Below, piece after piece: positions 5,692-57,062 of a DNA stretch of 64,000 nucleotides. Under the pieces are notes generated by a model. It made no database searches. It was not told the DNA's origin and saw nothing but the letters and a program-made list of their open reading frames with translations. Source of the stretch: Aphrocallistes beatrix (lineage: Eukaryota; Porifera; Hexactinellida; Sceptrulophora; Aphrocallistidae). The DNA lies in contig OY725489.1 in the NCBI GenBank assembly GCA_963281255.1, forward strand, positions 558,001 to 622,000. Reading direction: 5' to 3'. Position numbers and translations under genes: made by a program. Position 1 is the first letter of the stretch. Every line of letters starts with the position of its first letter.

Positions 5692-5733
5692 GTTGTTGTT
5701 GTTGTTTTGTTAAAAGCTCACATACAGGTTTCA

Positions 5734-29781: not shown

Positions 29782-30243
29782 ATGAATCAATTTGAATATA
29801 AAAATTATCAAGAGGATAAATATAAATTGATTTTGAGCAATCTTCTTGATTTGGAAGATCAGCATGTTGCTACTACGTGTACTGCTGAAGCCATCCTCGG
29901 ACCTTGTCGCGAGGAAGAACTGCCTAGCGTTAAGGGAATTAATGACCAAATGCGTACTTTGGCGTCTCAAATACTGATTTTTATCCTCAAACATGTGTCT
30001 TTTGAGATCCCCAGCATCGCTTCTCAAAATCTCGATTCTCCAATTCATTTATTCCTCAAAGAAATTGCAGATCCGACCATTGAACTGGAATATGACTATA
30101 ACAATACGTCAGAAGATAGCATGCATTTTATATTCGAACTGAAGACATCGAACGGGGAAATCATAGATAGCATACTCTTGAATTCGGATCAAAATCCCGA
30201 GATATTTTGTTTACAATATTTATATAAAGGAAAAATAGGCTAG
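29782..30243 (+). CDS. Unknown small-gene family, member A (153 aa, C-terminus replaced by a repeat)
   Basis: Not a recognised family. It shares with 33190 and 35516 an N-terminal charged helix, then A-E-x-I-L-G-P-C-x-E-x-E-x-P, then D-Q-M-R-T-L-A-S-x-I-L-I-F-I-L-K-H, then L-K-E-I-A-D-P-T and F-I-F-E-L-K-T-S-N-G-E-I-I-D. After N-P-E-I the sequence leaves the family. The last 11 codons derive from a repeat whose homologue lies reversed at 49205-49345, so the C-terminal I-C-P-F-Y motif and tail are lost. Upstream, aaataaatagcagttaatcta is shared with 33190 and is a likely core promoter. Possibly a pseudogene. Confidence 0.6.
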   Translation: MNQFEYKNYQEDKYKLILSNLLDLEDQHVATTCTAEAILGPCREEELPSVKGINDQMRTLASQILIFILKHVSFEIPSIASQNLDSPIHLFLKEIADPTIELEYDYNNTSEDSMHFIFELKTSNGEIIDSILLNSDQNPEIFCLQYLYKGKIG

Positions 30244-30331
30244 ATTGAGTAACTTCAGGCGCCCGCAGGGAGACTCTGCGGATACAAAGTGTCCGAAAGC
30301 CGCGCAGCGTAAGCAAGTGAAGTGCGCTTAT
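30210..30331 (+). repeat. Insertion with GC-rich hairpin cassette that truncates member A
   Basis: ttttgtttacaatatttata, then gcgcccgcaggg..., then agccgcgcagcgtaagcaag..gcgctta. It matches the reverse of 49205-49345. Hairpin stems are conserved with G-T wobbles (cggatac/gtgtccg). Confidence 0.7.
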
Positions 30332-30453
30332 CCATATGAAACTTGTATTTAAGTATATTTCAATGATCAGTGATTGAATCGCTGAAATCTGAATATGGTA
30401 CACTTAACAACTCGGGATCATTTCGAATTATAGTAATTCATATGGTTTCCCCG

Positions 30454-30895
30454 CAGTGCTCGACAAAATCAAAATTTGGTGTTGGCTATCTTAACCGGTA
30501 AACGGAAATTTCGTCCTCTGGAAATTTCGTCCCCGGAAATTTCGTTCCAGGAAATTTCGTCTCCGAACTTTTGTCTCATTAGAGCCTAAAATAAACAGGC
30601 ACTAATATGTAAGGAACGGAAAGTGAGGCTTTTGGAGTGGAGTATGTTTGAAAAAATGGTGAAAATGAGGCATTTTGATTGAGAAATCAGTAAGTGCGAA
30701 AGGGACATTTCAGGGGACGAAAATTCCAGGGACGAAATTTCTGGGATTCATCTTAACCACCATTTTACTTTTTCTGGTGGCTTTGTTAGCCACCAAACTC
30801 TAAATACGCTATATTAATAGAACAGTACTTCATAAAATTTGGTGGCTTTGTTAGCCACCACGCTCGGGAATTTCCACCAGATTTGTCGAGTACTG
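30454..30895. mobile_element. hAT-like MITE with perfect 8-bp duplication
   Basis: Flanked by tttccccg at 30446-30453 and 30896-30903. Terminal inverted repeats cagtgctcgacaaa and (from right) cagtactcgacaaa. It contains an inner inverted repeat made of gaaatttcgtcc units (30508-30570, and reverse at ~30715-30752) and two copies of ggtggctttgttagccacca, itself a palindrome-like unit. Confidence 0.85.
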
Positions 30896-31260
30896 TTTCC
30901 CCGCCCAAAATTCCTTAAACCGGAAATGAGTTTGCAGAATTCAAAGTTTTTTATTCATCATTAAATTTACCAAATCTAATCATAACAATTCCACATACAG
31001 CTCATAAATTCCAAAGGTTTATCTCGTTTCCAAGGGAAGGTTTAGTTCAAACCCTCCCCCTCAATTCTTCTAGAATTATTCAACAAGAAAATATTTAATC
31101 TTTACTAGTTTCAATCTTGACAAAAATGACAAGAATTTGCATTCGCGGGTGAATTCTAGGAACTAAGATCAAATATTTGAAATACGAGTCCTCTTAACTT
31201 GAAGTATGTTGTATAGGTTAAACTAAATTATACTAGACCGAACTCTTAGCAATCAGAAAG

Positions 31261-31268
31261 TATAAATG
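31261..31268 (+). promoter_or_regulatory. TATA box of the 31310 gene
   Basis: TATAAATG about 49 bp upstream of the ATG, within the duplicated block. Confidence 0.5.
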
Positions 31269-31309
31269 CAGCTTAGATGCCGTTTTAAAACTCATGCCAG
31301 TATTTAGGG

Positions 31310-31963
31310 ATGGCAGACATGAGTTGGGTAGTAGAGAAATACAAAGAAAAATGGGCCGAAGAAATTAATGGTGAAATTGAAGAGTTGAGATCCTTTCGTA
31401 CAATCGCTGCAAACACAAATATTCCTTATTCAACAGAATCACAAATATTTTATGATATGCTTATTTTTGACTCGACAAAGTTAATTTCAAAATTCAACGA
31501 TTTACTAATTTACCTTTCTTCCCCTCTTCCTCACAACTCTAAAGCTCATAGAGACTTGATAAAAAAAGCTACACATGTTGAAGTAAACACACAAACATCA
31601 CCACATTTCGAAATGTTGCATATATATTTCAAGATACAGCAATTACTCAGAGGTTTGAAAGATGTGCATTATTATGCACAGTGTGGAGATATTCTAGGCC
31701 CGTGCCATGATGACGGATATCCTTGCGATCGCTTCTACTATCCACGAATTCGTAGATTAGAAATTTGGTCTAACAAGCTGTTTCAGGCAGTTCTATTTCA
31801 AGCTCCTCTTTCGATTGGACGCGAATTGCGATCTTGCATTAAAGAGAAAATGCCGCGAGAAAAATGCCCTAGTAAGCACAAGATGAAAAAATACATTTTC
31901 AAATCTTGGAAATTTTATATGCGCTCTCATCAGCCTTTTTACAACATGGCTAGCAGCAATTAA
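31310..31963 (+). CDS. Unknown small-gene family, diverged member G (217 aa)
   Basis: The family core is present late in the protein: C-G-D-I-L-G-P-C-H-D-D-G-Y-P-C-D-R-F-Y-Y-P-R-I-R-R-L at ~125-150. Before it lies an extra ~120-residue helical region not seen in other members, with two helix-rich segments (W-A-E-E-I-N-G-E-I-E-E-L near the start, I-S-K-F-N-D-L-L-I-Y-L later). The C-terminus is Lys/Arg-rich (R-E-K-C-P-S-K-H-K-M-K-K) and short; the L-K-E-I and F-x-F-E-L blocks are absent. Function unknown. A TATA box sits upstream and a truncated duplicate at 28792. Confidence 0.55.
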   Translation: MADMSWVVEKYKEKWAEEINGEIEELRSFRTIAANTNIPYSTESQIFYDMLIFDSTKLISKFNDLLIYLSSPLPHNSKAHRDLIKKATHVEVNTQTSPHFEMLHIYFKIQQLLRGLKDVHYYAQCGDILGPCHDDGYPCDRFYYPRIRRLEIWSNKLFQAVLFQAPLSIGRELRSCIKEKMPREKCPSKHKMKKYIFKSWKFYMRSHQPFYNMASSN

Positions 31964-32229
31964 GTGCGGCTTATCGCAGTTCTCAAGTGAGATAATCCTC
32001 TGCTATTTATGCGCTTTTTTTGCAATTCTGTATTTTGCTTGTTGTAATGCTTTGGATGCTAAAAAGAGTATTGCTCACTCATATCAGTGTGAGTTATTAT
32101 GGGACGGGGAGCCATTGAAATGTGCGGGTATTTACTATAAAAAGAACCTACTCCCCAGTTTTAAGTGATTAACAATTCGTCGTGGGTGTTCCTATAGTAA
32201 TTATTCTGGTGGCGTGATTGCTTCTTTAA

Positions 32230-32312
32230 TACAAGCGCGCTTCACTTACTTGCGCTCCGCGGCTTGCGGGCACTGCGTAGCCGCAGAGTTACCCAGTGGG
32301 CGCTTGGGGATA
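32230..32312 (-). repeat. GC-rich hairpin cassette (degenerate)
   Basis: acaagcgcgcttcacttacttgcgc, then ccgcggcttgcgggcac. Alone, without the rest of repeat family R. Surrounding DNA to 33180 is duplicated from 28930 onward. Confidence 0.6.
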
Positions 32313-33189
32313 TTCAACCATTTATATGAAATAGAATCGTGTGAATCGCATTATAAAGGTCTGATATTGATTGTGGTTAGTAATCCCTTAGAAGCTAGCT
32401 AGTATCAAGCTACATTGATAATGTCGTGACACTCGTTTTATGGATTTTAATGCCAAAACAACTGAAAATTGGAATAACTAGCATAAAATGATTCAACATG
32501 ATTACAATATTCTATTCAGTAATCCGAATGTGCAGAATTATCTCTGTATCAAAAAGTGTCGTATAATATTGCAGTAGAGAGCAATGCAAGTAATACAAGG
32601 TAATACATATAAATACGTAGTATTAATGTCACTACAGCTATTCTCATAGGACAATGCAATACATACATATATGTTTAGATATATTTTATTATGAACACTT
32701 ATCACGTCTGGTTATCTATTAATTTAACACAATATTCACATTTATTGTTATTATTCTCTTCCAAATTTTAACTGTCTTTGTTCTGTGATGACTGTGATAA
32801 AATCCCCCATTCGTGATTTGAAATTCTGAGAAATTAAAATTAGTTGAAACACGAGTCCTAAACCTTGACATGTTCAGTATACGTATCACGCAACAGTATT
32901 CATTACGAATAACTTTAATTGATTATCCACTGAAGGATCAGAATATTATTAATACTAGAGAGCTGGACTACACAGCTAATTGCTTGCAACAGGTGTCTTG
33001 TTTTGTTTAGTGGTCTGATTATATGTTGAGATTCCCTCATCACATTGCAAGCTAAACATAACGCTATCCGAATTTGATATTTTGCTTCTAATCAAATCTT
33101 GCTTCTATTTGCTTTGTCCTGCGTAAACCTATTAAATAGCAGTTTTTAATCTAATCCAGTATTCATATTTATTATTAATTAATGAATAA

Positions 33190-33813
33190 ATGAATATGAA
33201 TCAAATTGGATATAAACAAGGTGAAGAGGATAAATATAAATTGATTTTGAGCAAGCTTGTTGCTTTGGAAGAGCAGCGTGTTGATGCTACTGCTGAAACC
33301 ATTCTCGAACCTTGTCACGAGGATGAACCGCCTAGCGTTAAAGTAATTAGTGACCAAATGCGTACTTTGGTGCCTCGAATACTGATTTTTATCCTCAAAC
33401 ATTTTGAGATCCTCAGCATCGCTGCTCAAAATCTCAATCCTCCAATTCGTTTATCCCTCAAAGAAATTGCAGATCCAACCCTTGAACCGGAATTTGACAG
33501 TAACAAGACATCAGAAAATGGCATAAATTTTATATTCGAACTGAAGACATCGAACGGGGAAATCATAGATATACTCTTGAATTCGGATCAAACTCCCGAG
33601 ATAGCTGCTAAGCTATTCGAAATTGCAAAGCTCATCAAAGATATCTGTCCCTTCTATGTTGGGGTTTGTGAATACCGGATAAAGTGCACCGAAAAATTTG
33701 AATCTCGCATCGTACCTTACCAAAGTAAATCCTCAAACAAGAATCCACACAGCGATGTGAAAATGGATTCGGTTGGCTATGTTCGGCTAGAATACAAGGG
33801 AGGAGGTTATTAA
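33190..33813 (+). CDS. Unknown small-gene family, member B (207 aa, full length)
   Basis: Full family layout. Residues 1-40 form a charged helix (E-E-D-K-Y-K-L-I-L-S-K-L). Then A-E-T-I-L-E-P-C-H-E-D-E-P-P, D-Q-M-R-T-L-V-P-R-I-L-I-F-I-L-K-H, L-K-E-I-A-D-P-T-L-E-P-E-F-D, F-I-F-E-L-K-T-S-N-G-E-I-I-D, and the C-terminal block L-I-K-D-I-C-P-F-Y-V-G-V-C-E-Y. The end is a short Lys-rich stretch followed by S-V-G-Y-V-R-L-E-Y. It is close to C (35516), so the duplication is recent. No signal peptide or membrane segment. A second ATG two codons in is equally possible. Confidence 0.6.
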   Translation: MNMNQIGYKQGEEDKYKLILSKLVALEEQRVDATAETILEPCHEDEPPSVKVISDQMRTLVPRILIFILKHFEILSIAAQNLNPPIRLSLKEIADPTLEPEFDSNKTSENGINFIFELKTSNGEIIDILLNSDQTPEIAAKLFEIAKLIKDICPFYVGVCEYRIKCTEKFESRIVPYQSKSSNKNPHSDVKMDSVGYVRLEYKGGGY

Positions 33814-34049
33814 AGAAGTTAAGAATCCGCTATCTGAACCGTTTCTCCTGCATTGCTAAATCCAAACCACGTAACCCACGTTTCTGTATGCATTATTTAC
33901 TTAGTTACGGTATGCACAAGCTCGCTATGATAGAAATAACTGCGCGGCTGGCCGACACCCCCCGCATTGCATTTCGCTTTCTCCCCTTTTTATGAATAGT
34001 TTTTATGAATATGCGTTTTATGTTTGAAATGTGGATTTTTGCTTTAATA

Positions 34050-34337
34050 TTTACAAGCACGCTTCGCTTTCTTGCGCTGCGCGGCTGGTGGACACTTTGT
34101 GTCTGCAGGAGACACCCTTTGGGCACCTGGGCCGCATTGGTTAATTATAAGGCAGATAACATATCTAAATACGTCTGTCCTACTGTTATAATCGATATCA
34201 CATAAAAAATCAACAAATTTGCCAATTTTTAAAATTTTGTTGCGTAATGATGACGTCATAACATAGTGATGAGTCATCATTTTTTGATGATAGTTACATA
34301 ATATGTGAGGTATATTAATATACACATTCTATTAAAA
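34050..34337 (-). repeat. Partial copy of dispersed repeat family R (hairpin end plus inner part)
   Basis: Reads inward from acaagcacgcttcgctttcttg, with the hairpin cassette, to aatgatgactcatc and the catatgatgcaact region, then stops. On the minus strand relative to 43721. The hairpin loop stem gtggacac/gtgtctgc keeps pairing through wobbles. Confidence 0.75.
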
Positions 34338-34978
34338 TACACTCATAATAATATATTGCACTCTGCAGACAGCATATCCCTTCATTAAGATTATTGATTA
34401 ATTAAACAAAGTATTCAAATACCTCTCAGCAACACTTGTAGCACAAATGTTTACCAGCCACACACCGAATGTGAGGCATTTAAAAATGTCGGTTGATAGA
34501 TCGATAAGTGTCTCCAGGGAGCGTTAAATGTGAAATCCATACATCTGAAAATAAGTTTAGAGCTTCCTAGGTCTACTAAGCAGTATACTTGAAATGCACA
34601 TCGTGTAATACTCTATATAAAGTGTCTGGGACGGAATAATCCTCAGAAGTTAATATTAAACTATGTCAATCACATAGAGACACTAATTAATGGAATTTTA
34701 AGATAAAATTTGGATGAATTTGTATAAAATGATTCATCATTATAGTATTATATTCCATCATCATAATGTGCAGAATTATATTTGAGATTGAAAAATAGCT
34801 AAATAATACTGGAAAGAGCTGATACTTATACAAAAGATCTAACTAATACATATTCTGCATACAGAGTTAGAATATCAATCAGTTATTATCATAAGAGAAT
34901 ATCACTACCAGTTATTTTTACTTAGTTATTTATTACTTAATTAATTAATTAACACCTGCTTATACATTAATTTAAATA

Positions 34979-35162
34979 CAGTCGACTCCACTTAATAAGG
35001 TCACTGTTCAATCGGGTCAACCGCTTAATCCGGCCACTTTTGGTAGGACCTGAATAGCTCTCACACATAGAAGTTAATACAAATATTTTCGGTTAATAGG
35101 GTTCTCCGCTTAATCGGGGCAAAATGTCTGACCGATGTGACCCTATTAAGCGGAGTCGACTG
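34979..35162. mobile_element. Pogo/Tigger-like MITE, complete, 184 bp
   Basis: cagtcgactccacttaata ... ttaagcggagtcgactg with TA on both sides. Same family as 28168. Confidence 0.85.
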
Positions 35163-35460
35163 TATTATATTAACATTTATTGGTGATGACTGTGAAAAAA
35201 ATTTGATGTCTGGAAAATTCAAAATCAGTTGAAACACGAGCCCACTGAACCTGACATGTGTTCATACACGCAAACAAGATTGATTACGAATAACTTTAAT
35301 TGATTAGTTGTTTGCAGGTGTTGTTTTGGCTACATGGCGCCTTATCTGTTTGAATTGCTTCGTAACGTTTAATAAACATAATGTTATCGAATTTGATCTG
35401 TGTTCTGTGTAAGGAACGTTTCTAGTCTATTTTGATATATTATTAAGACCCTTCATTAAC

Positions 35461-35469
35461 TATAAATAG
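35461..35469 (+). promoter_or_regulatory. TATA box of member C
   Basis: TATAAATAG, only 31 bp before the first ATG (35492) and 55 bp before the second (35516). This argues for translation from 35516, because transcription should start about 30 bp after the box. Confidence 0.5.
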
Positions 35470-35515
35470 TAGTTTCAAATCACTTATTTTCATGTCTATT
35501 ATTCCTCATCAAAAT

Positions 35516-36292
35516 ATGTACAAAATTAAAAGTGAATATGAAAATAATAAAGAGCAATATAAGAATAAATTGGCCAAGCTTTATAATTTGAGAAAGCAGT
35601 ATGATGATGCTACTGCTGAAGCCATCCTCGGACCTTGTCATGAAGATGAACCGCCTTGCGTTAAAGGAATTAGTGACCAAATGCGTACTTTGGCGTCTCG
35701 AATACTGATTTTTATCCTCAAACATTTTGAGATCCCCAGCATCGCTTCTCCAAATCTCAATCCTCCAATTCGTTTATTCCTCAAAGAAATTGCAGATCCA
35801 ACCCTTGAACCGGAATTTGACAGTAACAAGACATCAGAAAATGGCATAAATTTCATATTCGAACTGAAGACATCGAACGGGAAAATCATAGATAAAATAC
35901 TCTTGAATTCGGATAAAACTCCCGAGATAGCTGCTATGCTATTCAAAATGGGAAAGCTCGTCAAAGTCATCTGTCCCTTCTATGTTGGGGTTTGTGAATA
36001 TCGACTTAAGCATACTGAAGGACCTGAATCTCACACCGTACCTTACTATCCCAAACCTTCGAACAGGAATGCTAATGGCAAAGTGAGAATGAACTCGATT
36101 GGCTATGTTGAGCTAGAATACGAGGGAAAGGTTATATACGATGGAAATACGCGAAAAGAACCTAGAGAGCAGAATAGCATTTCATGTTTCCCCATAAAGG
36201 CATTTGCGTTCAGAAAATCAGCGAAGAAACAACCGAAAAATGGCGTAATGAAACCTCCTTCTCCTTCCCGATCATCTCAGCAAACGAAATAG
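35516..36292 (+). CDS. Unknown small-gene family, member C (258 aa)
   Basis: The frame opens at 35492, but I prefer the ATG at 35516, eight codons later, because of the TATA position and alignment with B. Family blocks are intact: N-terminal charged helix, A-E-A-I-L-G-P-C-H-E-D-E-P-P-C, D-Q-M-R-T-L-A-S-R-I-L-I-F-I-L-K-H, L-K-E-I-A-D-P-T, F-I-F-E-L-K-T-S-N-G-K-I-I-D and V-I-C-P-F-Y-V-G-V-C-E-Y. After the part shared with B it has a further ~50-residue tail, Lys/Arg/Pro/Ser-rich (K-S-A-K-K-Q-P-K-N), probably disordered and possibly nuclear. Function unknown. Confidence 0.6.
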   Translation: MYKIKSEYENNKEQYKNKLAKLYNLRKQYDDATAEAILGPCHEDEPPCVKGISDQMRTLASRILIFILKHFEIPSIASPNLNPPIRLFLKEIADPTLEPEFDSNKTSENGINFIFELKTSNGKIIDKILLNSDKTPEIAAMLFKMGKLVKVICPFYVGVCEYRLKHTEGPESHTVPYYPKPSNRNANGKVRMNSIGYVELEYEGKVIYDGNTRKEPREQNSISCFPIKAFAFRKSAKKQPKNGVMKPPSPSRSSQQTK

Positions 36293-39570: not shown

Positions 39571-40479
39571 TTGCCTGATATAATGGGAATTTTTCAAGAA
39601 AAGGACGAAATTATTTATCAATTAAACAAGTTACTGGATCAAATTCGTGATTTAAATTTTTTACATCACACTGCCATATGTGAAGATATATTAGACTCTT
39701 GTCTCACTGCTGAACTTCCTTGCGATGTAATATACGTTCCACGGATCCGTAGTTTGGCATCGAAAGCTTTGAAATTACTCTTCAAACTAGAATTATTCGA
39801 GATACGCGTATCAGCAGTTAATGATAATTTGCCTAAAGATTATATAGTCCAAATGTACTTGAAAGAAATAGAATTGATGCAAAACGAAGACATGGAGAAC
39901 TCAGATAGCTTTCGTTTCCGTTTTGAACTTAAACAGGTATTGAAAGGACATCCCAAGCAATCACTTCGGACCTTTAGTTGTGACATCAATGAATTCCAGG
40001 TTCCTAAAAATGTCAAAATGTTTGAGTTTGTCAAACTAGTCCATAATTACTGTCCATTCTTGGGCGATATTATTGAAACTAAGAGAGACAACTCACAGAA
40101 CGCAAATTCTCAAACTAATGAGAAAAGTATATCGATTGTCCCTGACAGACAGGAATCAAATGAAAAAATAAAAAGCGACCCAGAAACGAATCCTAACACA
40201 GACCTAATGATCCAACATTTCCCTCTGCATTCTAATCGGACGAATGATGAACTAAACTTGTCGAAAAGTGAAATTATTTTCTACAATTGTGATTCTGTTA
40301 TTAACAACACTACGATTCAGAATATCCCCAACAATTCATTACTACCCCACAAACGGCGTAAACGGCGTAGAAAAAGTTTGCATCCTCAAAGTAGCAGAAG
40401 AATAAAGAGAACAGACTACCCTTCGAGTATCAGTTGCTTTATATTTAACTTTATATTTAACTTCTTTGGCAATCAATAA
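39571..40479 (+). CDS. Unknown small-gene family, member D with basic tail (302 aa)
   Basis: Residues 10-35 are a charged helix (L-N-K-L-L-D-Q-I-R-D-L). The core reads C-E-D-I-L-D-S-C-L-T-A-E-L-P-C-D, then P-R-I-R-S-L-A-S-K-A-L-K-L-L-F-K-L. It is followed by Y-L-K-E-I, F-R-F-E-L, and N-Y-C-P-F as in the other members. The C-terminal ~130 residues are unique, low-complexity and Asn/Ser-rich, then strongly basic (R-R-K-R-R-R-K-S near residue 265) and a hydrophobic-aromatic end (C-F-I-F-N-F-I-F-N-F-F). The basic cluster is a probable nuclear or nucleic-acid-binding signal. Function unknown. Single exon. Confidence 0.6.
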   Translation: MPDIMGIFQEKDEIIYQLNKLLDQIRDLNFLHHTAICEDILDSCLTAELPCDVIYVPRIRSLASKALKLLFKLELFEIRVSAVNDNLPKDYIVQMYLKEIELMQNEDMENSDSFRFRFELKQVLKGHPKQSLRTFSCDINEFQVPKNVKMFEFVKLVHNYCPFLGDIIETKRDNSQNANSQTNEKSISIVPDRQESNEKIKSDPETNPNTDLMIQHFPLHSNRTNDELNLSKSEIIFYNCDSVINNTTIQNIPNNSLLPHKRRKRRRKSLHPQSSRRIKRTDYPSSISCFIFNFIFNFFGNQ

Positions 40480-41676: not shown

Positions 41677-41949
41677 CAGAGCTGCAAATGGGTCATGGCT
41701 CATGCACACATAGGTCATAACCCATTGAGAATAGCTACGTACTGCTACGCAGATTATGTCTAGTCGGTCTTAGGTGTGCTATTAGAAAGTAAGAAAAATA
41801 TACATATAAATCTTCATATGTTCCCATGAAATGATTTTCTCTTTAAAATATCATATAAAGCCACGTGAATAATTTAATATAAATGTACCATGTCACATGG
41901 GTCAAATGATGGGTCATGGGTCACTTCGTGTAACCCATTTGCAGCTCTG
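41677..41949. mobile_element. hAT-like MITE, 273 bp
   Basis: Ends cagagctgcaaatgggt and, from the right, cagagctgcaaatgggtt. An imperfect 8-bp duplication flanks it (cttttacc / gtttcacc). The internal part is AT-rich and non-coding. Confidence 0.7.
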
Positions 41950-42307
41950 GTTTCACCTAATCCCAATTTTCTCCTCCAAAACCACCCGCTCTCCTCAGAA
42001 CACTTCTAATTTTATGATAAATATATACATATTTTTGTTAACATTTTAGTTTGAGACTCGAATTTATATTATAATATATCACTTGGGTTAAAATATCCAT
42101 TTCTTGATCAAATACAAATACTAATACACAACATACAGTGGTGTTGTGGCCCTGGGGACCCATGAGGGGGATCCCTGATCACCTGTATAGCCACAATGCC
42201 CCTAACTACATAAAAAACCAAACAAACGACTACGCTTCTTTTTATTGATTCAAATACAAGTACAATTAGGTAAAATGATTCAAAACCATTAAACACGTGC
42301 AGGTTAT

Positions 42308-42388: not shown

Positions 42389-42439
42389 TTGTGAAGAAGT
42401 CTAAAAGGTAACTGTGTGAGATATATGGAAGAAAACAGG

Positions 42440-46383: not shown

Positions 46384-46390
46384 GCTTGTT

Positions 46391-47286
46391 AAATTTATTT
46401 GTGTTCGGACCACCTCATGTAAAAACATGTGATTGTGTTGGGAAAGCATGCAAATTATTTGGTTGACCAAATATTCTGTTGATTAAATTATTCGTTGACC
46501 AAATTATTTGGTTCCCAACCGAATACCAAATAATGATATTTGGTTACGAACCAAATATCAACTACAGTCGACTCCGCTTAATAGGGCCACATCGGTCAGA
46601 GGACATTTTGCCCCGATTAAGCGGAGGACCCTATTAACCGAAAATATTTTGTATTAGCTTATATGTGTGAGAGCTACTCCGGTCCTGCCAAAAGTGGCCC
46701 GATTAAGCGGCTGACCCGATTAAACAGTGGCCCTATTAAGCGGAGTCGACTGTATTTGCAAATATTATTTGGTTAAATCGAATAGTCAACTATTCAGTTG
46801 CAACCCTGGTAATTTTCAGTCTACTGTGGGGCATTATATTGAGTAGACTATGAATCTGTGAATCTGTGAATCGCATTCTTAAAGCCTGATAATTGATTGG
46901 TTCTCGCTTGAACCAATGCATTTCAATCACAAATGATCCCTTCGATTGTATGCATTGTAAATGAAGTTAGTACTGTTTAGATCCTAATGTATTGTATTAA
47001 TAAATAATCGAATTTTATTGGTCAGCACATTTTGTCACCTATCTCTGCGAGGTGTGAAGATTTCGCTTAGATCTTCGAGCTCCCTCTTAGACTCATTACT
47101 ATTTACTTATGTGCCAAATTTCACACTTCTAGCATCCTCCATTTCTTCAATCAACTTGCACAAACAAACAAAAAAGAAAAATGTCAGTCGACAAGACTGT
47201 GAGTGAAATTAAGTGACTCGTAGGGCATTTGAATAATATACATCCTTAATTGAGTTTCATTTCAGCCAATCAAATTTCAAGTTTAA
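46391..47286. other. Intergenic, nested repeats
   Basis: accaaataatttggt-type repeats (46450-46560) interrupted by a pogo-like MITE (46565-46752), resuming after it. 47025-47180 belongs to the aggtgtgaagatttcgctt repeat family also at 50615-50720 and 59410-59570. No gene. Confidence 0.5.
46565..46752. mobile_element. Pogo/Tigger-like MITE, complete, 188 bp
   Basis: cagtcgactccgcttaata ... ttaagcggagtcgactg with TA on both sides. It interrupts an older repeat. Confidence 0.85.
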
Positions 47287-47387
47287 CCGTAGAATGCCCA
47301 GAGGGGACACAGTGTCCCCGATATCGCGGATGTCTCCCAGCCATTTTCTATGACACTGAAGCCATATAAATGCTGGGCATTCTACAG
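47287..47387. mobile_element. piggyBac-like MITE, 101 bp
   Basis: Flanked by TTAA on both sides (47283-47286, 47388-47391). Ends ccgtagaatgcccag and, from the right, ctgtagaatgcccag. TTAA duplication is specific to the piggyBac superfamily. Confidence 0.75.
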
Positions 47388-48100
47388 TTAAAGTGTGATT
47401 CTAACTTGTTCATGTGTATTGAGTCAGGTCTTTCCACATTGACCAATTATATTAAATTCCACTTTCAAATTAAAACCCTGCAATCTTATTGGGAACCGCA
47501 AATATCACATTTTGAGAGAAGGTATGAAAATAGGATTAATAGTTACATTAGACTAGAGTGATTCTAACTCGTATATTTTCATTAAGTTAGGTATAATCCA
47601 TTTGACTCAATAGAATTTCCAGGAGCGAGCAGACGGACGGACGTGGCACGCCGTTCATGGCATAATGAATCTCCTATACTAGGAGCTGCACTAAAAAACC
47701 CAACAACATCGAGTTTTAATATATAAGATATTCCATAGAAATTCGAATAGCTGATACAAAACGTCTTTAAATAACTGCCTTTGGATGAGAATTTCAAAAT
47801 AATTTATAAAATTTGATAAACGGAGGGGGAATCGGACTGTTAGGTCTCGCAGGATATCGGCCCCATGGAGAGACAAACGCAGCACACCTCATGCAAATAA
47901 CGACACCGCTTATACGAGCTGCTCTAAAAATGATTGAGCACCATCTAGTATGGTTTTCTTTGCTTCCTGCGGGGAGTGATTTAGCCCAAAAGTTTCTACA
48001 TTAACAATTTATTCAATAAAGCCTGATGTGTAATCATTCTTTTCTACTCGCTTAAATTCTTTTGTAACATTATATAGCCAAATCTACTACTATATTATTT
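47388..48100. other. Intergenic before the 48101 fragment
   Basis: No gene seen. 48010-48100 is the family upstream block (tcttttctactcgcttaaat ... atagccaaatctactactat), shared with 55745-55800. Confidence 0.45.
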
Positions 48101-48295
48101 ATGGATTTTCTACCTTGTAATGGTGATACGGCTAGTGACAAAATATACAGTGAACGTATCCGTGGATTGGCATCTAAAGCTTTGAAGTTGCTTTTCAAGC
48201 TTATATCATTAGATAATCCAGACTCTACTTGTTTACCTAACAATTCACACAACACACATTGGTGTCTGAAAAAGAATTTTATTTCAAATAAGTAA
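48101..48295 (+). CDS. Short small-family fragment H (64 aa)
   Basis: M-D-F-L-P-C-N-G-D-T-A-S then the core I-R-G-L-A-S-K-A-L-K-L-L-F-K-L and N-P-D-S-T-C-L-P-N-N-S, ending soon after W-C-L-K-K. Nearly a duplicate of 55799. It lacks the N-terminal helix, the I-L-G-P-C start of the core and all downstream blocks. Either a pseudogene or a genuine short peptide. That two copies keep the same short frame, ending within a few residues of each other, argues mildly for the latter. Confidence 0.35.
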   Translation: MDFLPCNGDTASDKIYSERIRGLASKALKLLFKLISLDNPDSTCLPNNSHNTHWCLKKNFISNK

Positions 48296-48541
48296 TCAAA
48301 TGGAGCTTGCAATCAGTGATTCTACCTTCATCCACTGCGTACTGCTTGGTAGTATTTTCCCAGGTAATGTACAGTGCAGCACCTGCAGCTCCGAGTGCCT
48401 TATGTCATGATCGGCATGCGACGTCCGTACGTCCGTATACTCGCTCCTGGAAATTATATTGGACCACATTACACCTAATTTAGACCATGTATTCTTTATA
48501 TAATGGAGATTTGAACTTGGGTCCAAATCTTATTTATTAAA

Positions 48542-48614
48542 ACGCCCGCAGGGCAGCTCTGCGGGTACGCAGTGTCTGCAAGCCGTGCCTGCAATCAAGC
48601 GAAGCGCGCTTGTT
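48542..48614 (+). repeat. GC-rich hairpin cassette at the break of a family fragment
   Basis: cgcccgcagggcagctctgc with stem cccgcag/ctgcggg (7 bp), then gcaagccgtgcctgcaatc, then aagcgaagcgcgcttg. Immediately followed by the 5'-truncated family copy (48640). Confidence 0.7.
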
Positions 48615-48639
48615 ATGAAATATTTTCACATCTTTCCAC

Positions 48640-48760
48640 AGAAGCTTTAAAGTTGCTCTTCAAGCTTATATCATCAGAGAATCCAGACCCTACTTGTTTA
48701 CCTAACAATTCACACAAACATCTGTGTCTGAAAGAAATTGATTACAAAGAAGTAAATTAA
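48640..48760 (+). pseudogene. 5'-truncated small-family fragment I
   Basis: Starts inside the core (E-A-L-K-L-L-F-K-L-I-S), continues N-P-D-P-T-C-L-P-N-N-S, H-L-C-L-K-E-I-D-Y-K-E and stops. The 5' part is replaced by the hairpin cassette. The 3' flank (aattaatcaaatggatcttg) matches that of 48295 and 55996. Confidence 0.7.
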
Positions 48761-49205
48761 TCAAATGGATCTTGCAATCAGTAATTCTACCTTCATCCAC
48801 TGCTTGGTAATATTTCCCAGGTTTATAATAATGATCACAACATAACCTAAATGTTCTACTACCCATTCCTAATTTAACAACATTACCTTGAAATGTCCTG
48901 GGTCTTGATTCAACTTGATTTAAAATTGTAGACGCTACCACATTATCTGTCATTATATTCTACCATTTTTAGTGCAGCTCCTAGTATTTGAACCTGGGTC
49001 CAACTTATCGAAAGGTGTCAAAATGTATTAACTAATCATAATTCAGAGATTTACCATTACAGTTGGCTTTCATTTTATAGATTAATAGGGATTCGTATAC
49101 AATTAGAAATATCTAACAAGTGTCTAGAGTTCTTTACACCTTTAAATTCATTTATCTTATTTTGTATTACTAAATTATAACGCAAATATTTGAACTATAA
49201 TAATT

Positions 49206-49281
49206 ACAAGCACGCTTCGCTTGCTTGCGCTGCGCGGCATGCGGACACATAGTGTCCACAGAGTCGCCCTGTGGGCGCCTG
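49206..49281 (-). repeat. GC-rich hairpin cassette with covarying stem
   Basis: acaagcacgcttcgcttgct, gcggacacatagtgtccaca and ccacag/ctgtgg. Compared with cccgcag/ctgcggg at 48543, both sides of one pair have changed (G-C to A-T), which preserves the stem. The reverse of 49206-49345 is the segment inserted in member A at 30210. Confidence 0.7.
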
Positions 49282-49309
49282 GAATTACTCAATCTAACAT
49301 ATTTTGGAA

Positions 49310-49735
49310 ATGTTTTCCTTTATATAAATATTGTAAACAAAGGTCGACGAATAATTTCTCATATGGATCCGAAAATATAATATTCGAAATCGACAGCACT
49401 AAAGACCCCATGTCAACCGTTGGAAGCTAGTTTCTAGCCCATTTTTTTAATTTGTTTACTTTATGCATCTATTGTAAACATAAGTATACAAATTGATCAT
49501 CATATTTACTCGAAAATATGATATTCGAAATCTACACCCCTAAAAACCCCATGCCAACTGTTTAAAGCAAGTTTCTAGCATATTTTTGAGATTTGTTTAC
49601 TTTATGAATCTATTGTAAACAAAAGTAAACAAATAATTTATCATATAGATCCGAAAATATGATATTCGAAATCTACACCCCTAAAAACCCCATGTCACCC
49701 GTTGGAAGGTAGTCTCTAGCATTATTTTCAAAATT
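49310..49735. repeat. 141-bp tandem repeat, three copies
   Basis: tattcgaaatc recurs at 49381, 49522 and 49663 (141-bp spacing), each within gaaaatatgatattcgaaat ... ccccatgtca. It adjoins the hairpin cassette at 49206 and shares the tttgtttac...attgtaaac motifs. Possibly the body of a repeat element that ends in the cassette. Confidence 0.75.
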
Positions 49736-49824
49736 CATCAAATGGTGTGAAAATATGCACATCATCTTTTCTATTGTAGTGTCGTACAATGATTTCTATT
49801 GAGATAGTGTAGTCATTTATTTAG

Positions 49825-50577
49825 TACAAGCGCGCTACGCTTGCTTGCGCTCCGCGGCTGGCGGACACTTCGTGTCCGCCTGAGGCTCCCTTCGGTCGCC
49901 TTGGGTCACATTGGTTAATTATAAGGGAGATAACATCTTTAAATATGTCCATCTTAGTATTAAAATCGATATCACTCGAAAAATCACCAAATTTGTCAAT
50001 TTTTAAAATTTTGATGCGTAATGATGACGTCATAACAGAGTGATGAGTCATCATTTTTTGATGATAGTTGCATCATATGTGAGGTATGTTAGTCTACATA
50101 TTCTATTAAAATTTCAGCCTTCTATCTCATATAATGGCTGAGTTATGCTCGAATAACTGTATTGCTTAACTTTTAAAAATGTGACAATGACGTCATAATT
50201 CCATGATGAGTGGACATTTTGCTCTGAGCTCAGAACTTACTGGAGCCATAGCCAAAAGACTTCCACATGCCAAAAATCAGCCTTCTACGCCTGGCAGTTT
50301 CTTCAATCAATTCGTTACAGATATATATATATATATACAGTCGACTCCGCTTAATAGGGCCACTGTTTAATCGGGTCAGCCGCTTAATCGGGCCACTTTT
50401 GGCAGGACCGGAATAGCTCTCACACATAGAAGCTAATACAAAATATTTTCGGTTAATAGGGTCCTCCGCTTAATCGTGGCAAAATGTCTTCTGACCGATG
50501 TGGCCCTATTAAGCGGAGTCGACTGTATATATATATATATATAAATATACATTAATCGAGTTTCAATAGTAAGGATA
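49825..50577 (-). repeat. Full-length family R repeat, interrupted by a pogo-like MITE
   Basis: Reverse orientation copy of 43721-44264, from tacaagcgcgctacgcttgc through the hairpin stem ggcggacac/gtgtccgcc to cgagtttcaatagtaagga. A 188-bp pogo-like MITE (50338-50525) sits in its (TA)n tract, as expected for a TA-targeting element. Confidence 0.8.
50338..50525. mobile_element. Pogo/Tigger-like MITE, complete, 188 bp, in a (TA)n tract
   Basis: cagtcgactccgcttaata ... ttaagcggagtcgactg. Inserted in the TA run of repeat family R, so it is younger than that copy. Confidence 0.85.
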
Positions 50578-50765
50578 GAAAAAGTGTGAAAAATTGTTTT
50601 CCATTTTTTTTGCAGAGGTGTGAAAATTTCGCTTAGATCTTAGAACTTAATCGTAGTCATATCATTTGACTCCTACATGCAAATTTTCACACCTCTACAA
50701 CTTCCCAATTCTTCAATCAATTCGGACAAACAAAACAAGACAAAAAAATCCTAGCATTTTAATAT

Positions 50766-51308
50766 ATCCTTACTATTAAAACTCGATTAATGTATATTTA
50801 TTTATATATATATCTGTAACGAATTGATTGAAGAAACTGCCGGGCGCAGAAAGCTGATTTTTGGCATGTGGGAGTCTTTTGGCTATGGCTCTAGTAAGTT
50901 CTGAGCTCAGAGCAAAATGTCGACTCATCATGGAATTATGACGTCATTGTCACATTTTTAAAAGTTAAGCAACAAAGTTATTCGGGCATAACTCAGCCAT
51001 TATAGGAGATAGAAGGCTGAAATTTTAATAGAATCTGTATTCTAACACGTCTCACATATGATGCAACTATCATCAAAAAATGATGGCTCATCACTTTGCT
51101 ATGACGTCATCATTACTCATCAAAATTTTTAAAATTGACAAATTTGGTGTTTTTTCGAGTAATATCGATTTAAAACTAAGATGGACATATTTAGAGATGA
51201 TATATCCCGTTTAATTAACCAATGTCACCTCCAGGCGACCGAAGGGAGCCTCCAGCGGACACGAAGTGTCCGCCAGCCGCGCAGCGGAAGCAAGTGAAGC
51301 GCGCTTGT
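50766..51308 (+). repeat. Full-length family R repeat
   Basis: ccttactattaaaactcgat ... ggcgaccgaagggagcctcc, gcggacacgaagtgtccgc and agtgaagcgcgcttgta. Very similar to 43721, so recently spread. Left flank (50588-50760) is another repeat family (gaggtgtgaaaatttcgctt). Confidence 0.8.
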
Positions 51309-51750
51309 AAGATAATAACGCAGGACTCAATGTATGGGGCCATTTGATCACTTAATAATTTATCTGCAATAATACATATTCATCATATAGAATTGAAAAT
51401 TACTTTTTGGGGCCATCAATATCGCTGCAGGTCCAAATGGGGGCCTTCTGGCGGCGAATGTTGGGAACCACTGCCCTAGATGTTTGGACAAATAAACACA
51501 ACACGCATACAACAATTGAGTTTTAATACTAACATAAATACTCCCGGAGATTAGTATGAAAACGGATTTGAGGTAATTCGGATAAGAAGTACTTTCTTTA
51601 AATCCTGCATGCAAATACAAATAACTCAGGTCATTACTAATTTCTGATAACGGTAGAAAATGACGGAATTTATCTGCACATTCTCTATTTACATGCCATC
51701 TTGTCAAATCATTTCTACCACTATATCCAATTGATGTAATTCAAGCTTAT
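51309..51750. other. Non-coding between two family R copies
   Basis: No gene. 51410-51475 contains gcaggtccaaatgggggccttctggcgg, resembling a non-autonomous transposon end. Unassigned. Confidence 0.35.
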
Positions 51751-52107
51751 CCTTACTATTAAAACTCGATGATTGTATATATATATATATCTGTAACGAA
51801 TTGATTGAAGAAACTGCCGGGCGCAGAAGGCTGATTTTTGGCATGTGGGAGTCTTTTGGCTATGGCTCCAGTAAGTTCTGAGTTCAGAGCAAAATGTCGA
51901 CTCATCATGGAATTATGACGTCATTGTCACATTTTTAAAAGTTAAGCAACACAGTTATTCGGGCATAACTCAGCCATTATAGGAGATAGAAGGCTGAAAT
52001 TTTAATAGAATCTGTATACTAACACGTCTCACATATGATGCAACTATCATCAAAAAATGATGACTCATCACTTTGTTATGACGTCATCATTACGCATCAA
52101 AAATTTA
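51751..52107 (+). repeat. 3'-truncated family R repeat
   Basis: Same start as 50766, ending at cattacgcatcaaaaattta. It lacks the AT-rich stretch and hairpin cassette. Confidence 0.75.
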
Positions 52108-52273
52108 TATGAATAGGACATTATAGGTTTCTACTCAAACACTATATTCTTTCTCCATTAAATTTGAGCCTTCATGACCACACGATAGAAGGTATATTGT
52201 TAATTAGAATAGTCATAATACTCTTTCTCTAACTTCCTCATTTCTACTGAACAAATAGTCCCTGTTTCAATTT

Positions 52274-52283
52274 TATATAAATA
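52274..52283 (+). promoter_or_regulatory. TATA box of member E
   Basis: TATATAAATA 61 bp before the ATG at 52344, followed by acacatg. Confidence 0.4.
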
Positions 52284-52343
52284 CACATGTACTAAATGTA
52301 AAGTTGGATAAAACGAATAATTTAAAATACTTGCTAAGTAAAT

Positions 52344-53090
52344 ATGCGTTTAAAGCGATACATTATCTCAAAATATAGAATAATATTTTCAAAGATTAAC
52401 AAGTTAGAACACTCTCACCACCTTACTCATGTTGAAGAAATATTGGGACCTTGTCATGATCTGCCTAGTGACAGAATATACAATAAACCTATCCGTAGAT
52501 TGGCATCTAAAGCTTTAAAGTTGCTCTTCAAGCTTATATCATTAAAGAATCCAGACTCTACTTGTTTACCTAACAATTCAAACAAACATTGGTGTCTGAA
52601 GGAAATCGGGTGCAAAGAAACAATTGAATCAGATGGAGAATATATAGAACTAGGAGATTTATTTTTCAGATTTGAATCTAATTCTGGAGCCAGTGCCATA
52701 CACATACAGAATACGAAAGAGACTTTTTTTTGGAACTCAATGGATTTACTTTCCAAGTATAATATTAAATTGGAAACACTTGCTAAAAAGATCAAAAATT
52801 ATTGTCCAATCACAGTTGAAGGTTGTAAGAGACAGAATCCTCTTTCTAGGTTATATGATTTACCATGTAGTAATTCAGCAGTCACTTCATCTGCTCCAAA
52901 TACTAGTATAAGACTATTAAGTCGACCTAGGCGAGTTATAGGAAGTGTCAAGACAGCAAAGCCTCATAGGAATTTAATTCGTCTCCGTAGGATACTCCTG
53001 GGCCATAGGAAACGTAAATTTACTGGTGCAGCGAGGTTGATAATGCTCCGTACCCACCGCCATCGTTCATTGTTAAATTGGTGCCCATAA
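52344..53090 (+). CDS. Unknown small-gene family, member E with basic tail (248 aa)
   Basis: V-E-E-I-L-G-P-C-H-D-L-P-S-D-R-I-Y, then I-R-R-L-A-S-K-A-L-K-L-L-F-K-L-I-S, then N-P-D-S-T-C-L-P-N-N-S, C-L-K-E-I, F-F-R-F-E-S and N-Y-C-P-I-T-V-E. The core is closest to fragments 48101 and 55799, which lack everything around it. The C-terminal ~70 residues are strongly basic with Arg/Lys/His clusters (R-R-I-L-L-G-H-R-K-R-K-F), suggesting binding to nucleic acid or the nucleus. It lacks the usual second Cys of the core. A TATA box (TATATAAATA, 52274-52283) lies about 60 bp upstream. Confidence 0.6.
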   Translation: MRLKRYIISKYRIIFSKINKLEHSHHLTHVEEILGPCHDLPSDRIYNKPIRRLASKALKLLFKLISLKNPDSTCLPNNSNKHWCLKEIGCKETIESDGEYIELGDLFFRFESNSGASAIHIQNTKETFFWNSMDLLSKYNIKLETLAKKIKNYCPITVEGCKRQNPLSRLYDLPCSNSAVTSSAPNTSIRLLSRPRRVIGSVKTAKPHRNLIRLRRILLGHRKRKFTGAARLIMLRTHRHRSLLNWCP

Positions 53091-55798
53091 GACATGAATT
53101 AAATGATCTCAGAAATGTTTTTCATTTTTTTCTTTTATGAGATATTTCCATATTACCAATATGTACATACTAATCACTGTTACTTACAGAAGTGATTCCG
53201 GGAAGTTTCCTGAAATATCTCTGAATGCAACTCCTCAGAATTACTCATAAATGGCATTTTTGAGCTATTCGATGGGACATACAGTAATTAAATGTGTGTT
53301 TAATTCTATATTACTCTATATAATATCCGTTTATTTCCTGTTTTTGTGAAGAATGTGCTATATACACATCTAAATGTCAATGTTATATAATAAAAGTGAT
53401 TCATAATATCTAATGAAATCCACGAATAGGGAAACGGTGCGGTAGTATAGAAATGAATTACTACCTAATACATCACTTTATTTTTTCAGGCTTGTACTAT
53501 CTTCAATTGGTGCTCATAAAACAAGTATTTAAGTATAGATTTCTTTAGTTCTTACTTCCACGGAATATTACCATTATGCATGAGTGCAATCAAGGAATCA
53601 CCATTATTGTTAGAACTAAAAGTGAGACTATAATTCAGGGAGGTATTTCTGAAAGTTTTAGAATAGTAGATTCTTAATTAAGCTATACTAAAGAGGGTAC
53701 AGAGTTAATAATATAATCCGACCCCACACTTAATCTTATTCGTGTGTGTGTGGGGGGGGGGAGGGGAGTTGATTTAAAACACGGGCTTCGCATATCGAGC
53801 CACTGATCGCACCCCAGAACATTGTTTTCCAAAAAAATGAAGAGCCAAGGCCGCATTAAGATAAGTTCGAATCTCAGACAGAAATTTCAATTCATTGTAG
53901 TATTATGGCGTCATGTTGCCTTTTATAATTATAAAGTGATTGATTATAGTGCATAACACGTACCTCGATTTTGTTGTTAACGTTACTCGGCTGAAGTTGT
54001 TTGAGTCGCTCAAATATAATAATCTTTGGAAATGTGAATGTGAACTTTCTACGTGGTTTCAAATTGACATTACATTTATGATTTGTTAGCTTAATAATAT
54101 TAAGCAAATTTCTTTTATTGTGAACCTAATTTTTCATCATTAGACATGACTCAATGTAAATAAACAATTATAATAACCACTCAAACACGAAATTTGATTG
54201 ACTGAAGTGAAAAATATATCTACAAAACAAAACTCTGCTGACCAATGAAATTGCAGGGTTTTAGCCCACGCTTGCCACAGGAATGTGTTGCGTCGTTTCC
54301 GGTTTAAGCCATTTTCAATGGGGAAGCCATATAAGTGTGGGGTTACTACTATAAATAGAAAAATCCCAAGTTTAATATTACAGCTGGCTTTAATGTTAGT
54401 GCCCAGTAGGTCAATGCATATAAATAAATCAGAGTGACTTCCTGAACTTGAAATATGATTGGTTGACATAGAGAAATTTGTTAATGAATCAAACGATATC
54501 TCAATGATTACTATATAATATTTCATCATGTTGGTGTTCTACGTACGAGTCATTTAATGGAGTTACACTATCAGTCTGTCGAAGGACATTTTTTTGCACC
54601 TTGTAATAAAATAATTTTTATACAGGAGAAGAATCATTTTCTACATGTCTAAGGTTAAGGCTAAGAGGTGTATGCTAACTACATTGTCCTGATGTCTCTT
54701 ATCTTGGCCTTCTCGACTTTATGTAATAACATTCTTTCCAACTGTTTCTACCTGATTTGTTCATAACTAAGTCTGATGCAATCAATACTTTTCTACTCAT
54801 TGCAACTATGATCATTATAGGGAAATATAGTATTAGACAAATCTGCTAGGTACATACAGATGTGATCTACTTTCTAAGAATAATGACTACAACTTCACTC
54901 TTCTTAGCTAAGCTATTTCATTATTATAATTTGATGTGTAGATTCTGAATAAATTCTTGGTGATGTCCACCTGGCTTATCATTTCCTTTGTAAAGTTTAG
55001 TTGTTCATGTAGGTGTCCAGAATGCTCAGCTAATGTTTACGAAGTTTGCTGTTAGTTCTGTTATCGTCTAACAGTTTTTTACTCGTTTATAATTTTAGTC
55101 GTGAATCGATAGAGTCTGAAGAGTTCATTCTCTTTACTCATAGATAAATTCAATATAAGCACTAAATTCGCAGATTCCTCGAACGGACGTAGTAATGCCA
55201 ATAACGATCCTCTTCATTTGTTCTAATAACAATCTACATATATTATTAAAATGAATCATCGTATGGACGCATTGATTGAAATAGCATTTTTACAATGAAA
55301 GATAACAATATTCTGCTTATCTAACTTGTTAATATTTCTGATGATAGCTATAGCTATTGGTGATTCGGTCTGATATATTCTATCTGTTTTTCTCTGCTTC
55401 CTTTTAGGGCAAACTCTTCCAACAGTTTCTATCTCATTCGTACATAGCTTTAATTAAAGCTGATGTAACCAATACTTTCTACTTTATAGTCCGTCTTTAA
55501 GTCAGTGTGGCGACATCTATGTCTCCTGTCCTACTTAACCATATTTTTAATATCTACGCACTGCAAATGTTTATCACTTGATACAGTAGAACCTCTGAGA
55601 TTAAAATATCCAATTATGTGCACCTGTCTATAATGTTTTCTAATGCTTTTTATTTTACTCACATTTCTGATAATAACTATTTGTAAATCGCTCTAATATC
55701 ATCTAGCAAAGTTTCTACATTAGCAGTTCATAGCTTAATCAATACTTTTCTACTCGCTAAGAATCTTTTGTAACCATTATATAGCCAAATCTACTACT
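53091..55798. other. Intergenic with relic family upstream blocks
   Basis: A G-rich run at 53738-53765 (gtgtgtgtg then g9-a-g4). The repeat gtttaagccattttcaatgg..ctataaatagaaaa at 54290-54362 is shared with 5995. From ~54730 there are successive degraded upstream blocks (54740-54830, 55425-55500, 55700-55798) like those at 42440, with ttctacc and tctactc motifs. No intact gene. Confidence 0.45.
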
Positions 55799-55996
55799 AT
55801 GTTATTTATGGGTTTTCTACCTTGTAATGGTGATACAGCTAGTGGCAGAATATACTGTGAACCTATTCGTAGATTGGCATCTAAAGCTTTAAAGTTGCTC
55901 TTCAAGCTTATATCATTAGATAATCCAGACTCTACTTGTTTACCTAACAATTCACACAAACATTGGTGTTTGAAGGAAATGGATTACAAAGAATAA
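55799..55996 (+). CDS. Short small-family fragment J (65 aa)
   Basis: Near-duplicate of 48101: L-P-C-N-G-D-T-A-S-G-R-I-Y, then I-R-R-L-A-S-K-A-L-K-L-L-F-K-L, N-P-D-S-T-C-L-P-N-N-S, H-W-C-L-K-E-M-D-Y-K-E. Its flanks (upstream tctactcgctaagaatc..., downstream aattaatcaaatggagcttg) are conserved too. Pseudogene or a short peptide, as for 48101. Confidence 0.35.
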   Translation: MLFMGFLPCNGDTASGRIYCEPIRRLASKALKLLFKLISLDNPDSTCLPNNSHKHWCLKEMDYKE

Positions 55997-56339
55997 ATTA
56001 ATCAAATGGAGCTTGCAATCAGTGATTCTACCTTCATTCACTGCTTGGTAATATTTCCCAGATAATATAGAACACAAACATAACCCAAACGTTCTACTAT
56101 CCATTTCTAATTCAATAACATTAATACTGCAATGTGCATATTTCTACCTTGAAATGTCCTCATCTTGATTCTACTTGATTTATAATTGTAGACGCTGCCA
56201 CATTGTAGTCAGCATGTCATTATATTCTACCATTTTCAATGACTGTCTTCCTGTCTTTCGGTATATATACTTGTGAAATACTAGATTAGTTTAAATATCT
56301 TAGATAAAACAAATATTCAAGTTTGAACTATATTCGAGA

Positions 56340-57062
56340 ATGAATAGAGATTTGCATAATCAACAGCTAGAACTTCTTCGCTCTGAATTAGAAAATAGAT
56401 TAGCAGAGATTGAGGATTTAAGGCAGAAACGAGACTCTGCCATGTGTGAAGAAGTGTTGGAAGTTTGTCATGATGATGAACTACCCTGTCAAAAACTATA
56501 CAATCCACTGATCCGTAGGTTGACGTCCAGAGTTTTGACGCTACTTTTAAAACTTTCATCATTCGAGTCTACTCATTTGAGTAACAATCTTCACAATAAA
56601 ATTTATCTGAAAGAAATATGTTTCATTCGAAATAATGAATCGATTATTTATGAAGAACCATCAGAAACCATATCATTTGAGATTGAAATTATTCATAAAG
56701 GCCCTTCAGCATCTACGCATAATAATATTACTTTGGATACCTTTAGTATAAACACAGTGTATTTATCTTCCTTGCTTAATTTTAAACTGGATAAATTCAC
56801 CAAATACATCTATGATCGCTTCTTTTTCAGTAATTCTTATAATGATAATGGTATACAACATGAATTCTCAAATGCCAGGACTGCAGGACAACAGACTGAG
56901 CGCTCAAACAAAAATCTGAAAACAAAGAATCTTAAAATTGGATCTTTTGTCAAGCATGAAAATGGAGGAAATATGCACAGGATTATGGGTACTATCAGAT
57001 GTGTTTATGCCGAAAGACAGGATAACTTTGGAGATTCGCATTTAGGGCTTTCAATCCCATGA
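56340..57062 (+). CDS. Unknown small-gene family, member F (240 aa)
   Basis: A strong N-terminal heptad helix (E-L-L-R-S-E-L-E-N-R-L-A-E-I-E-D-L), then C-E-E-V-L-E-V-C-H-D-D-E-L-P-C-Q-K-L-Y, then I-R-R-L-T-S-R-V-L-T-L-L-L-K-L, then Y-L-K-E-I-C and F-E-I-E-I. The downstream C-P-F block is not recognisable. The C-terminal part is Lys/Asn-rich. It is the most diverged full member of the main layout. TATATATA lies about 75 bp upstream (56262). Confidence 0.55.
   Translation: MNRDLHNQQLELLRSELENRLAEIEDLRQKRDSAMCEEVLEVCHDDELPCQKLYNPLIRRLTSRVLTLLLKLSSFESTHLSNNLHNKIYLKEICFIRNNESIIYEEPSETISFEIEIIHKGPSASTHNNITLDTFSINTVYLSSLLNFKLDKFTKYIYDRFFFSNSYNDNGIQHEFSNARTAGQQTERSNKNLKTKNLKIGSFVKHENGGNMHRIMGTIRCVYAERQDNFGDSHLGLSIP

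Follow-up and report, generated by a model that had tools for sequence, protein, structure and literature searches.

Which gene family occupies the interval from 28.5 to 57.1 kb of the Aphrocallistes beatrix window (the whole stretch of 64,000 nucleotides analysed here), and how do its copies come to differ from one another? The original prediction had described a multi-copy family of small genes that it could not name. This tandem family is real: profile and blast searches bore it out at the positions proposed, always on the plus strand, and together they delimit ten family copies and one dead 5′ end, all in the same orientation (Table 1; copies are called by their start positions). Five of these copies (33190, 35516, 39583, 52344 and 56340) are full open reading frames (ORFs) of 207–298 codons from the ATG with a common core, in place of the "six long members" for which seven coordinates had been listed.

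Table 1. Family features in the window (window coordinates).
Feature	Position	Strand	Description	Evidence
Dead 5′ end	28561..28852	+	5′ part of a dead family gene, duplicate of 31079-31370	blastn
Member 29782	29782..30240	+	Truncated	tblastn, blastn, profile
ORF 31310	31310..31960	+	Divergent or chimeric, 217 codons	blast, profile
Member 33190	33190..33810	+	Intact ORF, 207 codons	ORF, blast, profile
Core tract	33282..33671	+	Core of 33190, near-identical to 35516; putative gene-conversion tract	Low-divergence scan, synonymous divergence (pS)
Member 35516	35516..36289	+	Intact ORF, 258 codons from ATG 35516; second in-frame ATG at 35492	
Member 39583	39583..40476	+	Intact ORF, 298 codons; Arg/Lys-rich stretch in tail	
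Fragment 48101	48101..48292	+	Core fragment	blast; profile E 3e-16
Fragment 48632	48632..48757	+	Core fragment within ORF 48515-48757	blast, profile
Member 52344	52344..53087	+	Intact ORF, 248 codons; strongly basic tail	
Fragment 55799	55799..55993	+	Core fragment	blast; profile E 3e-18
Member 56340	56340..57059	+	Intact ORF, 240 codons	

A profile of six members, searched against the six-frame translation, returned ten copies, namely the six training members and four more (55799 at E 3e-18, 48101 at 3e-16, 48515 at 2e-10 and 31310 at 3e-10), with the next candidate only at E 2.4. When each member was left out in turn, it still scored 93.8 (39583), 158.2 (29782), 191.3 (33190), 194.3 (35516), 78.9 (52344) or 73.5 bits (56340), compared with a best score of at most 12.6 bits among 500 residue shuffles per member. 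Two subgroups also recovered each other without shared training data: a profile of 29782, 33190 and 35516 detected 56340, 39583 and 52344 at E 2e-12 to 1e-9, and the reciprocal profile detected 29782, 35516 and 33190 at 1e-16 to 2e-13. The former profile missed 31310 (E 0.062) and the fragments (48101 at 2.7). As a yardstick for ORF length, 50 single-base shuffles of the 30-kb region contained no stop-free run above 162 codons (median 123); the five full members and 31310 exceed this, and 29782, with a stop-free run of 163 codons, is level with it.

The remaining copies are incomplete or aberrant. The dead start that had been placed at 28792 was found, as a 292-base copy (96.6% by blastn) of the sequence around the start of 31310, its upstream part reaching 99.1% of 231 bases. 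Member 29782 is truncated as predicted, since its match to 33190 stops at 30204 and a dispersed repeat recurring elsewhere in the window starts at 30206. The three predicted fragments are indeed core fragments (the one given as 48640 spans the interval 48632–48757); 48101 shares 84% protein identity over 58 residues with 55808–55978, and the start of ORF 48515-48757 resembles dispersed-repeat sequence. Other details had to be revised: the member assigned to 39571 has its ATG at 39583, and 31310, which had been counted as an ordinary long member, resembles the core only over about 43 residues (approximately 109–151). A duplicated domain was suspected within 31310; the profile gave a single match there. 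Local duplicates and dead copies both occur in the window, and the proposal of birth and death is supported within it by the duplicates, the repeat-truncated copy, the dead 5′ end and the three fragments.

The shared core spans about 100–130 residues, beginning at the C-H loop and ending with the C-P-F block, and no residue besides C40, L58 and K94 (numbered as in 39583) is invariant across the ten copies. Its motifs are looser than was first claimed. The E-x-I-L-G-P-C-H string, said to be common to all, occurs exactly in just two of the ten copies (35516 and 52344); the I-R-R-L-A-S-K string, also claimed for all, is exact as IRRLASKALKLLFKL in two (52344 and 55799) and as SKALKLLFKL in four; and the C-P-F block, attributed to most members, is found in three of the five full ones (33190, 35516 and 39583), with CPI in 52344 and neither in 56340. 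A zinc-binding C-H module or zinc finger was rejected on account of the single invariant Cys of the ten-copy alignment, in which the His of the C-H loop and the flanking Cys vary. The tails carry a net charge of +3 to +19 in five members; the suggested nuclear or nucleic-acid-binding role is a guess drawn solely from these basic tails.

The pattern of a constant core with variable ends is clear between two neighbours, 33190 and 35516. A low-divergence block scan of this pair found 23 differences in the 390 positions of 33282–33671, as opposed to 76 in the 230 outside, a contrast seen in 0 of 2000 permutations; the block opens some ten residues ahead of the C-H loop and closes just past the C-P-F block, i.e., it coincides with the conserved core. 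Synonymous divergence of the pair rose from 0.061 in the core (33301–33603; 4.0 of 66.0 sites) to 0.299 in the tail (13.5 of 45.2 sites), with a label-permutation p of 0.003, for boundaries that were chosen after looking and with a weak circular-shift control (43 of 203 shifts at least as extreme). The core of 29782 is similarly close to those of 33190 and 35516 at synonymous sites (0.062 and 0.092). The near-identity of the 33190 and 35516 cores, synonymous sites included, suggests that neighbours have exchanged the core by gene conversion, with divergence continuing in the N-terminal helix and in the tail: low synonymous divergence points to conversion or ectopic recombination rather than to protein constraint alone, which could nonetheless contribute. 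The claim of rapid evolution is supported at the N-terminal helix and in the tails, with the refinement that the core is homogenised between neighbours.

The 5′ flank common to 29782 and 33190 is 88.9% identical over 749 aligned bases (63 gap columns), with five 100-column blocks at 97–100% and the remaining flank blocks at 73–89%. For 33190 and 35516 the flank is weakly alike (47–71% by block; a single 105-base blastn stretch at 79%), then three core blocks reach 94–97% and identity drops to 81, 75 and 64%. Left of a switch near 33284, informative sites among the three copies support 29782-33190 by 58 to 33, and right of it they support 33190-35516 by 24 to 7; in this test, which comprised three copies only and omitted gap columns and about 25 sites of a third kind, the switch was equalled in 9 of 5000 permutations. 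The leftmost sub-block (33020–33100) favours 33190-35516 by 16 to 12, which speaks against a single clean switch.

Among the deep pairs, dN/dS was 0.51 for 39583-56340 (bootstrap range 0.30–0.78), 0.44 for 39583-52344 (0.25–0.71) and 0.71 for 52344-56340 (0.46–1.01), the range thus lying below 1 in two of three; these values belong to pairs with dS of 1.1–1.7, near saturation, from which saturated bootstrap replicates were dropped. Recent pairs gave 2.63 for 29782-33190 (1.20–13.18), 1.57 for 29782-35516 (0.72–4.21) and 0.99 for 33190-35516 (0.64–1.60). The comparison of 29782 with 33190 yielded 43.5 nonsynonymous changes in 325 sites and 4.5 synonymous in 83 over the whole alignment (Fisher p 0.034, rounded counts), and 17.5 in 86.2 and 0.5 in 18.8, respectively, in the N-terminal part (p 0.038); the other four Fisher tests were not significant (p 0.086–0.75). 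Given six tests, few synonymous sites and one truncated copy, we take this as a hint of positive selection and no more.

The simplest reading of the gene structure is that of single-exon genes with short leaders and, by prediction, their own TATA-type promoters. A TATAWA motif lies 46–78 bases before the ATG in six of eight starts (28792 and 31310 at −49, 35516 at −55, 39583 at −70 to −46, 52344 at −70/−68 and 56340 at −78/−76), or in five of seven when the duplicates 28792 and 31310 are counted once; none was found within 120 bases of the ATG at 29782 and 33190. Across the window 173 of 2381 ATGs carry TATAWA at −80 to −40, a background that was counted after the positions had been inspected. 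Downstream, AATAAA occurs 79 bases past the end of 56340; the ORFs of the other seven starts lack it within 303 bases, three of them (28792, 35516 and 52344) having ATTAAA, and in 39583 an AATAAA overlaps the stop. A clear downstream AATAAA in just one of the five full members (56340) counts against the single-exon reading.

The protein has no name in the libraries searched. Pfam gave no family above cut-off for ten proteins, NCBIfam no match for six members, PHROGs none for six members (best E 0.15) and PDB sequences none below E 0.6. Sub-cut-off Pfam matches comprised IL4Ra_N in three proteins (E 0.0073, 0.024 and 0.04), DUF5667 (0.084) and DUF3657 (0.13); IL4Ra_N (PF09238) was rejected at 17 bits in 52344 against a cut-off of 22.1, two fragments scoring 15.3 and 14.6 bits and all three matches falling on one stretch. 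Pattern-limited searches found no relative in IMG/VR (39583, 56340 and the 29782/33190/35516 alignment) or in GTDB genomes (52344 and the same alignment), nor did a search of phages with 35516; distant relatives may escape the IMG/VR and GTDB searches, which work through exact matches to short peptides, and since the collections other than Pfam and PDB are prokaryotic or viral, their silence says little for an animal gene. Scans for Rfam families (at the gathering threshold) and for tRNAs returned nothing from the window, and at title and abstract level we found no literature on this family; PMC5041008 deals with NLR and other very large families.

Structure prediction, suggested along with the original prediction, gave a low-confidence layout of the core, and no significant fold match followed in the PDB or BFVD. 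A first model, of the whole of 56340 with six sequences, was poor (pLDDT 44). A second, of the 39583 core with seven sequences, reached a pLDDT of 63 and a pTM of 0.55 (low confidence) and predicts helices at 3–30, 33–36 and 46–73, strands at 87–99, 109–120 and 126–134, and a helix at 146–156. Foldseek with this model gave 0 of 937 PDB matches at E ≤0.001 (best E 0.012, TM 0.17, COMMD-like) and 0 of 1391 in BFVD (best E 0.0042, TM 0.19), and such weak matches do not identify the modelled fold. Prompted by them, we considered the COMM domain of COMMD proteins, whose order of three strands followed by a helix agrees with that predicted by our low-confidence model. It was not supported: sequence comparison with one COMM protein, COMMD1, gave nothing (hhalign, run with the core profile against its COMM domain, paired one column only, at a printed Prob of 0.1), TM was about 0.2 and Pfam COMM did not match any of ten proteins at E up to 10, a search in which HMMER filters drop most matches above 0.1. 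We also take the member layout to resemble RWD/kinetochore-type proteins with a coiled coil and a small alpha/beta domain; they share the helix, sheet, helix order, whereas their name is absent from the Pfam matches, the one PDB sequence match and the best 50 of 937 fold matches.

These results bear on whether the genes descend from a known, widespread family as a branch that has diverged beyond the reach of sequence profiles and been amplified locally. The core as modelled, with three strands between helices, is a plain alpha/beta layout that would suit such an origin, as would the COMMD-like, Commander or CCC-complex chains that make up 14 of the best 50 of 937 PDB fold matches; yet the empty Pfam, NCBIfam and PDB sequence searches, the low score of the top fold match and the single column aligned with COMMD1 make it somewhat unlikely. 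We give less credit still to an origin from a transposable element, with the ORFs as its gag- or ORF1-like gene, or to captured viral multigene copies. Single ORFs combining an N-terminal helix with a basic tail, in a region rich in mobile elements, would fit this very improbable reading, and 55417–55641, upstream of fragment 55799, recurs at 42895–43116 (90%) without a family ORF. However, gag, reverse transcriptase and zinc-knuckle domains are absent from the Pfam search of ten proteins, all copies lie on one strand, the longest shared flanks in the blastn self-comparison of the window connect nearby copies (29782 with 33190; 48101 and 48632 with 55799), and neither IMG/VR, within its pattern-limited search, nor the viral fold comparison gave a significant relative.

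Fast-changing families of a single lineage often serve conflict or recognition, and are overlooked because no profile names them. An immune or allorecognition family with ends diversified by positive selection would account for the nonsynonymous excess between 29782 and 33190 and sits well with the NLR-like ORF about 5 kb away. We nevertheless hold it to be improbable: the other four tests were not significant and 29782 is truncated, mosaic exchange can mimic the selection signal, Pfam found no recognition domain in the members, and a single NLR-like neighbour proves nothing. The restraint of the original prediction on this point was right, as nothing here shows an immune function. It is equally hard to credit that the cluster is decaying with no working member left; truncated or fragmentary pieces amount to 5 of 11 and dN/dS of 33190-35516 is 0.99, but the five full ORFs exceed the shuffle maximum and deep-pair dN/dS is 0.44–0.71.

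We consider it likely that these short, probably single-exon genes of an invertebrate animal form a tandem family whose core is homogenised by conversion or ectopic recombination while the ends diverge. Such a family would expand and decay as genes duplicate locally, are truncated or receive repeat insertions; exchange between neighbours, by gene conversion or ectopic recombination, would keep their cores alike and leave N-terminal helices and C-terminal tails free to diverge. Its product may be a small protein of intracellular location (guessed, with low confidence), in which the N-terminal helix, possibly a coiled coil, might serve pairing, the helix, three-stranded sheet and helix of the low-confidence model would form the constant scaffold, and the disordered, mostly basic tail could be the variable contact part; pairing and contacts are likewise guesses. 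Lineage-restricted tandem multigene families with birth and death and partial gene conversion are an established general kind, and the evolutionary mode is in this sense familiar. Our family resembles them in its one-strand row of copies, truncated copies, fragments and mosaic tracts, and differs in that its low-divergence tract and core domain coincide, with divergence at both ends, and in that its protein matches no named family in the libraries searched. A constant core with exchanged ends would be a testable design; that this animal family is a modular generator of diversity, with a core kept constant by conversion and a diversified pairing helix and basic tail, is an idea we regard as quite doubtful.

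Several other features share the window. Three long ORFs on the minus strand (1–1614, 4087–5709 and 6377–7948) form a second tandem family with hydrophobic stretches alike by eye; Pfam matches above cut-off are limited to Alanine_zipper in the repeat tail of the first, which ends in a 21-base tandem array encoding a 7-residue repeat, and the other two have none. Two very long plus-strand ORFs of 1297 and 1190 codons follow (11226–15116 and 15210–18779), the latter with a DEAD-helicase match just below the Pfam cut-off (25.7 versus 26 bits). ORF 22526-23254, for which Pfam gave no match, has a start that we take to resemble the HSP60 N-terminus, and after it about 58 copies of CCCCCTTA at 22775–23252. 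At the other end, the NLR-like ORF on the minus strand (61951–63999) runs off the window, with ribonuclease-inhibitor-type leucine-rich repeats (E 3.5e-16), a weak NLRC4_HD2 match below cut-off (E 0.0015) and no NACHT in its in-window part. Mobile elements include a minus-strand retroelement remnant at 44545–46100 (reverse transcriptase E 5e-20, aspartyl protease E 4e-9), presumably Ty3-like by its look; a MULE transposase domain (E 7e-10) in ORF 57895-58611 of the minus-strand interval 57570–58611; and a plus-strand DDE transposase at 59856–60827 (DDE_3, E 5.5e-7), which we assume from weaker sub-cut-off matches to be of mariner type. Together with the NLR-like ORF, these neighbours point to nuclear DNA of an animal. 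A 141-base unit is repeated 3.1 times in tandem at 49293–49735. Finally, dispersed short repeats at 28160–28562, 34962–35170, 46563–46757 and 50321–50534, pairwise about 86–98% alike by blastn, carry GACCCGATTAAGCGG-type sequence and resemble a small non-autonomous element.
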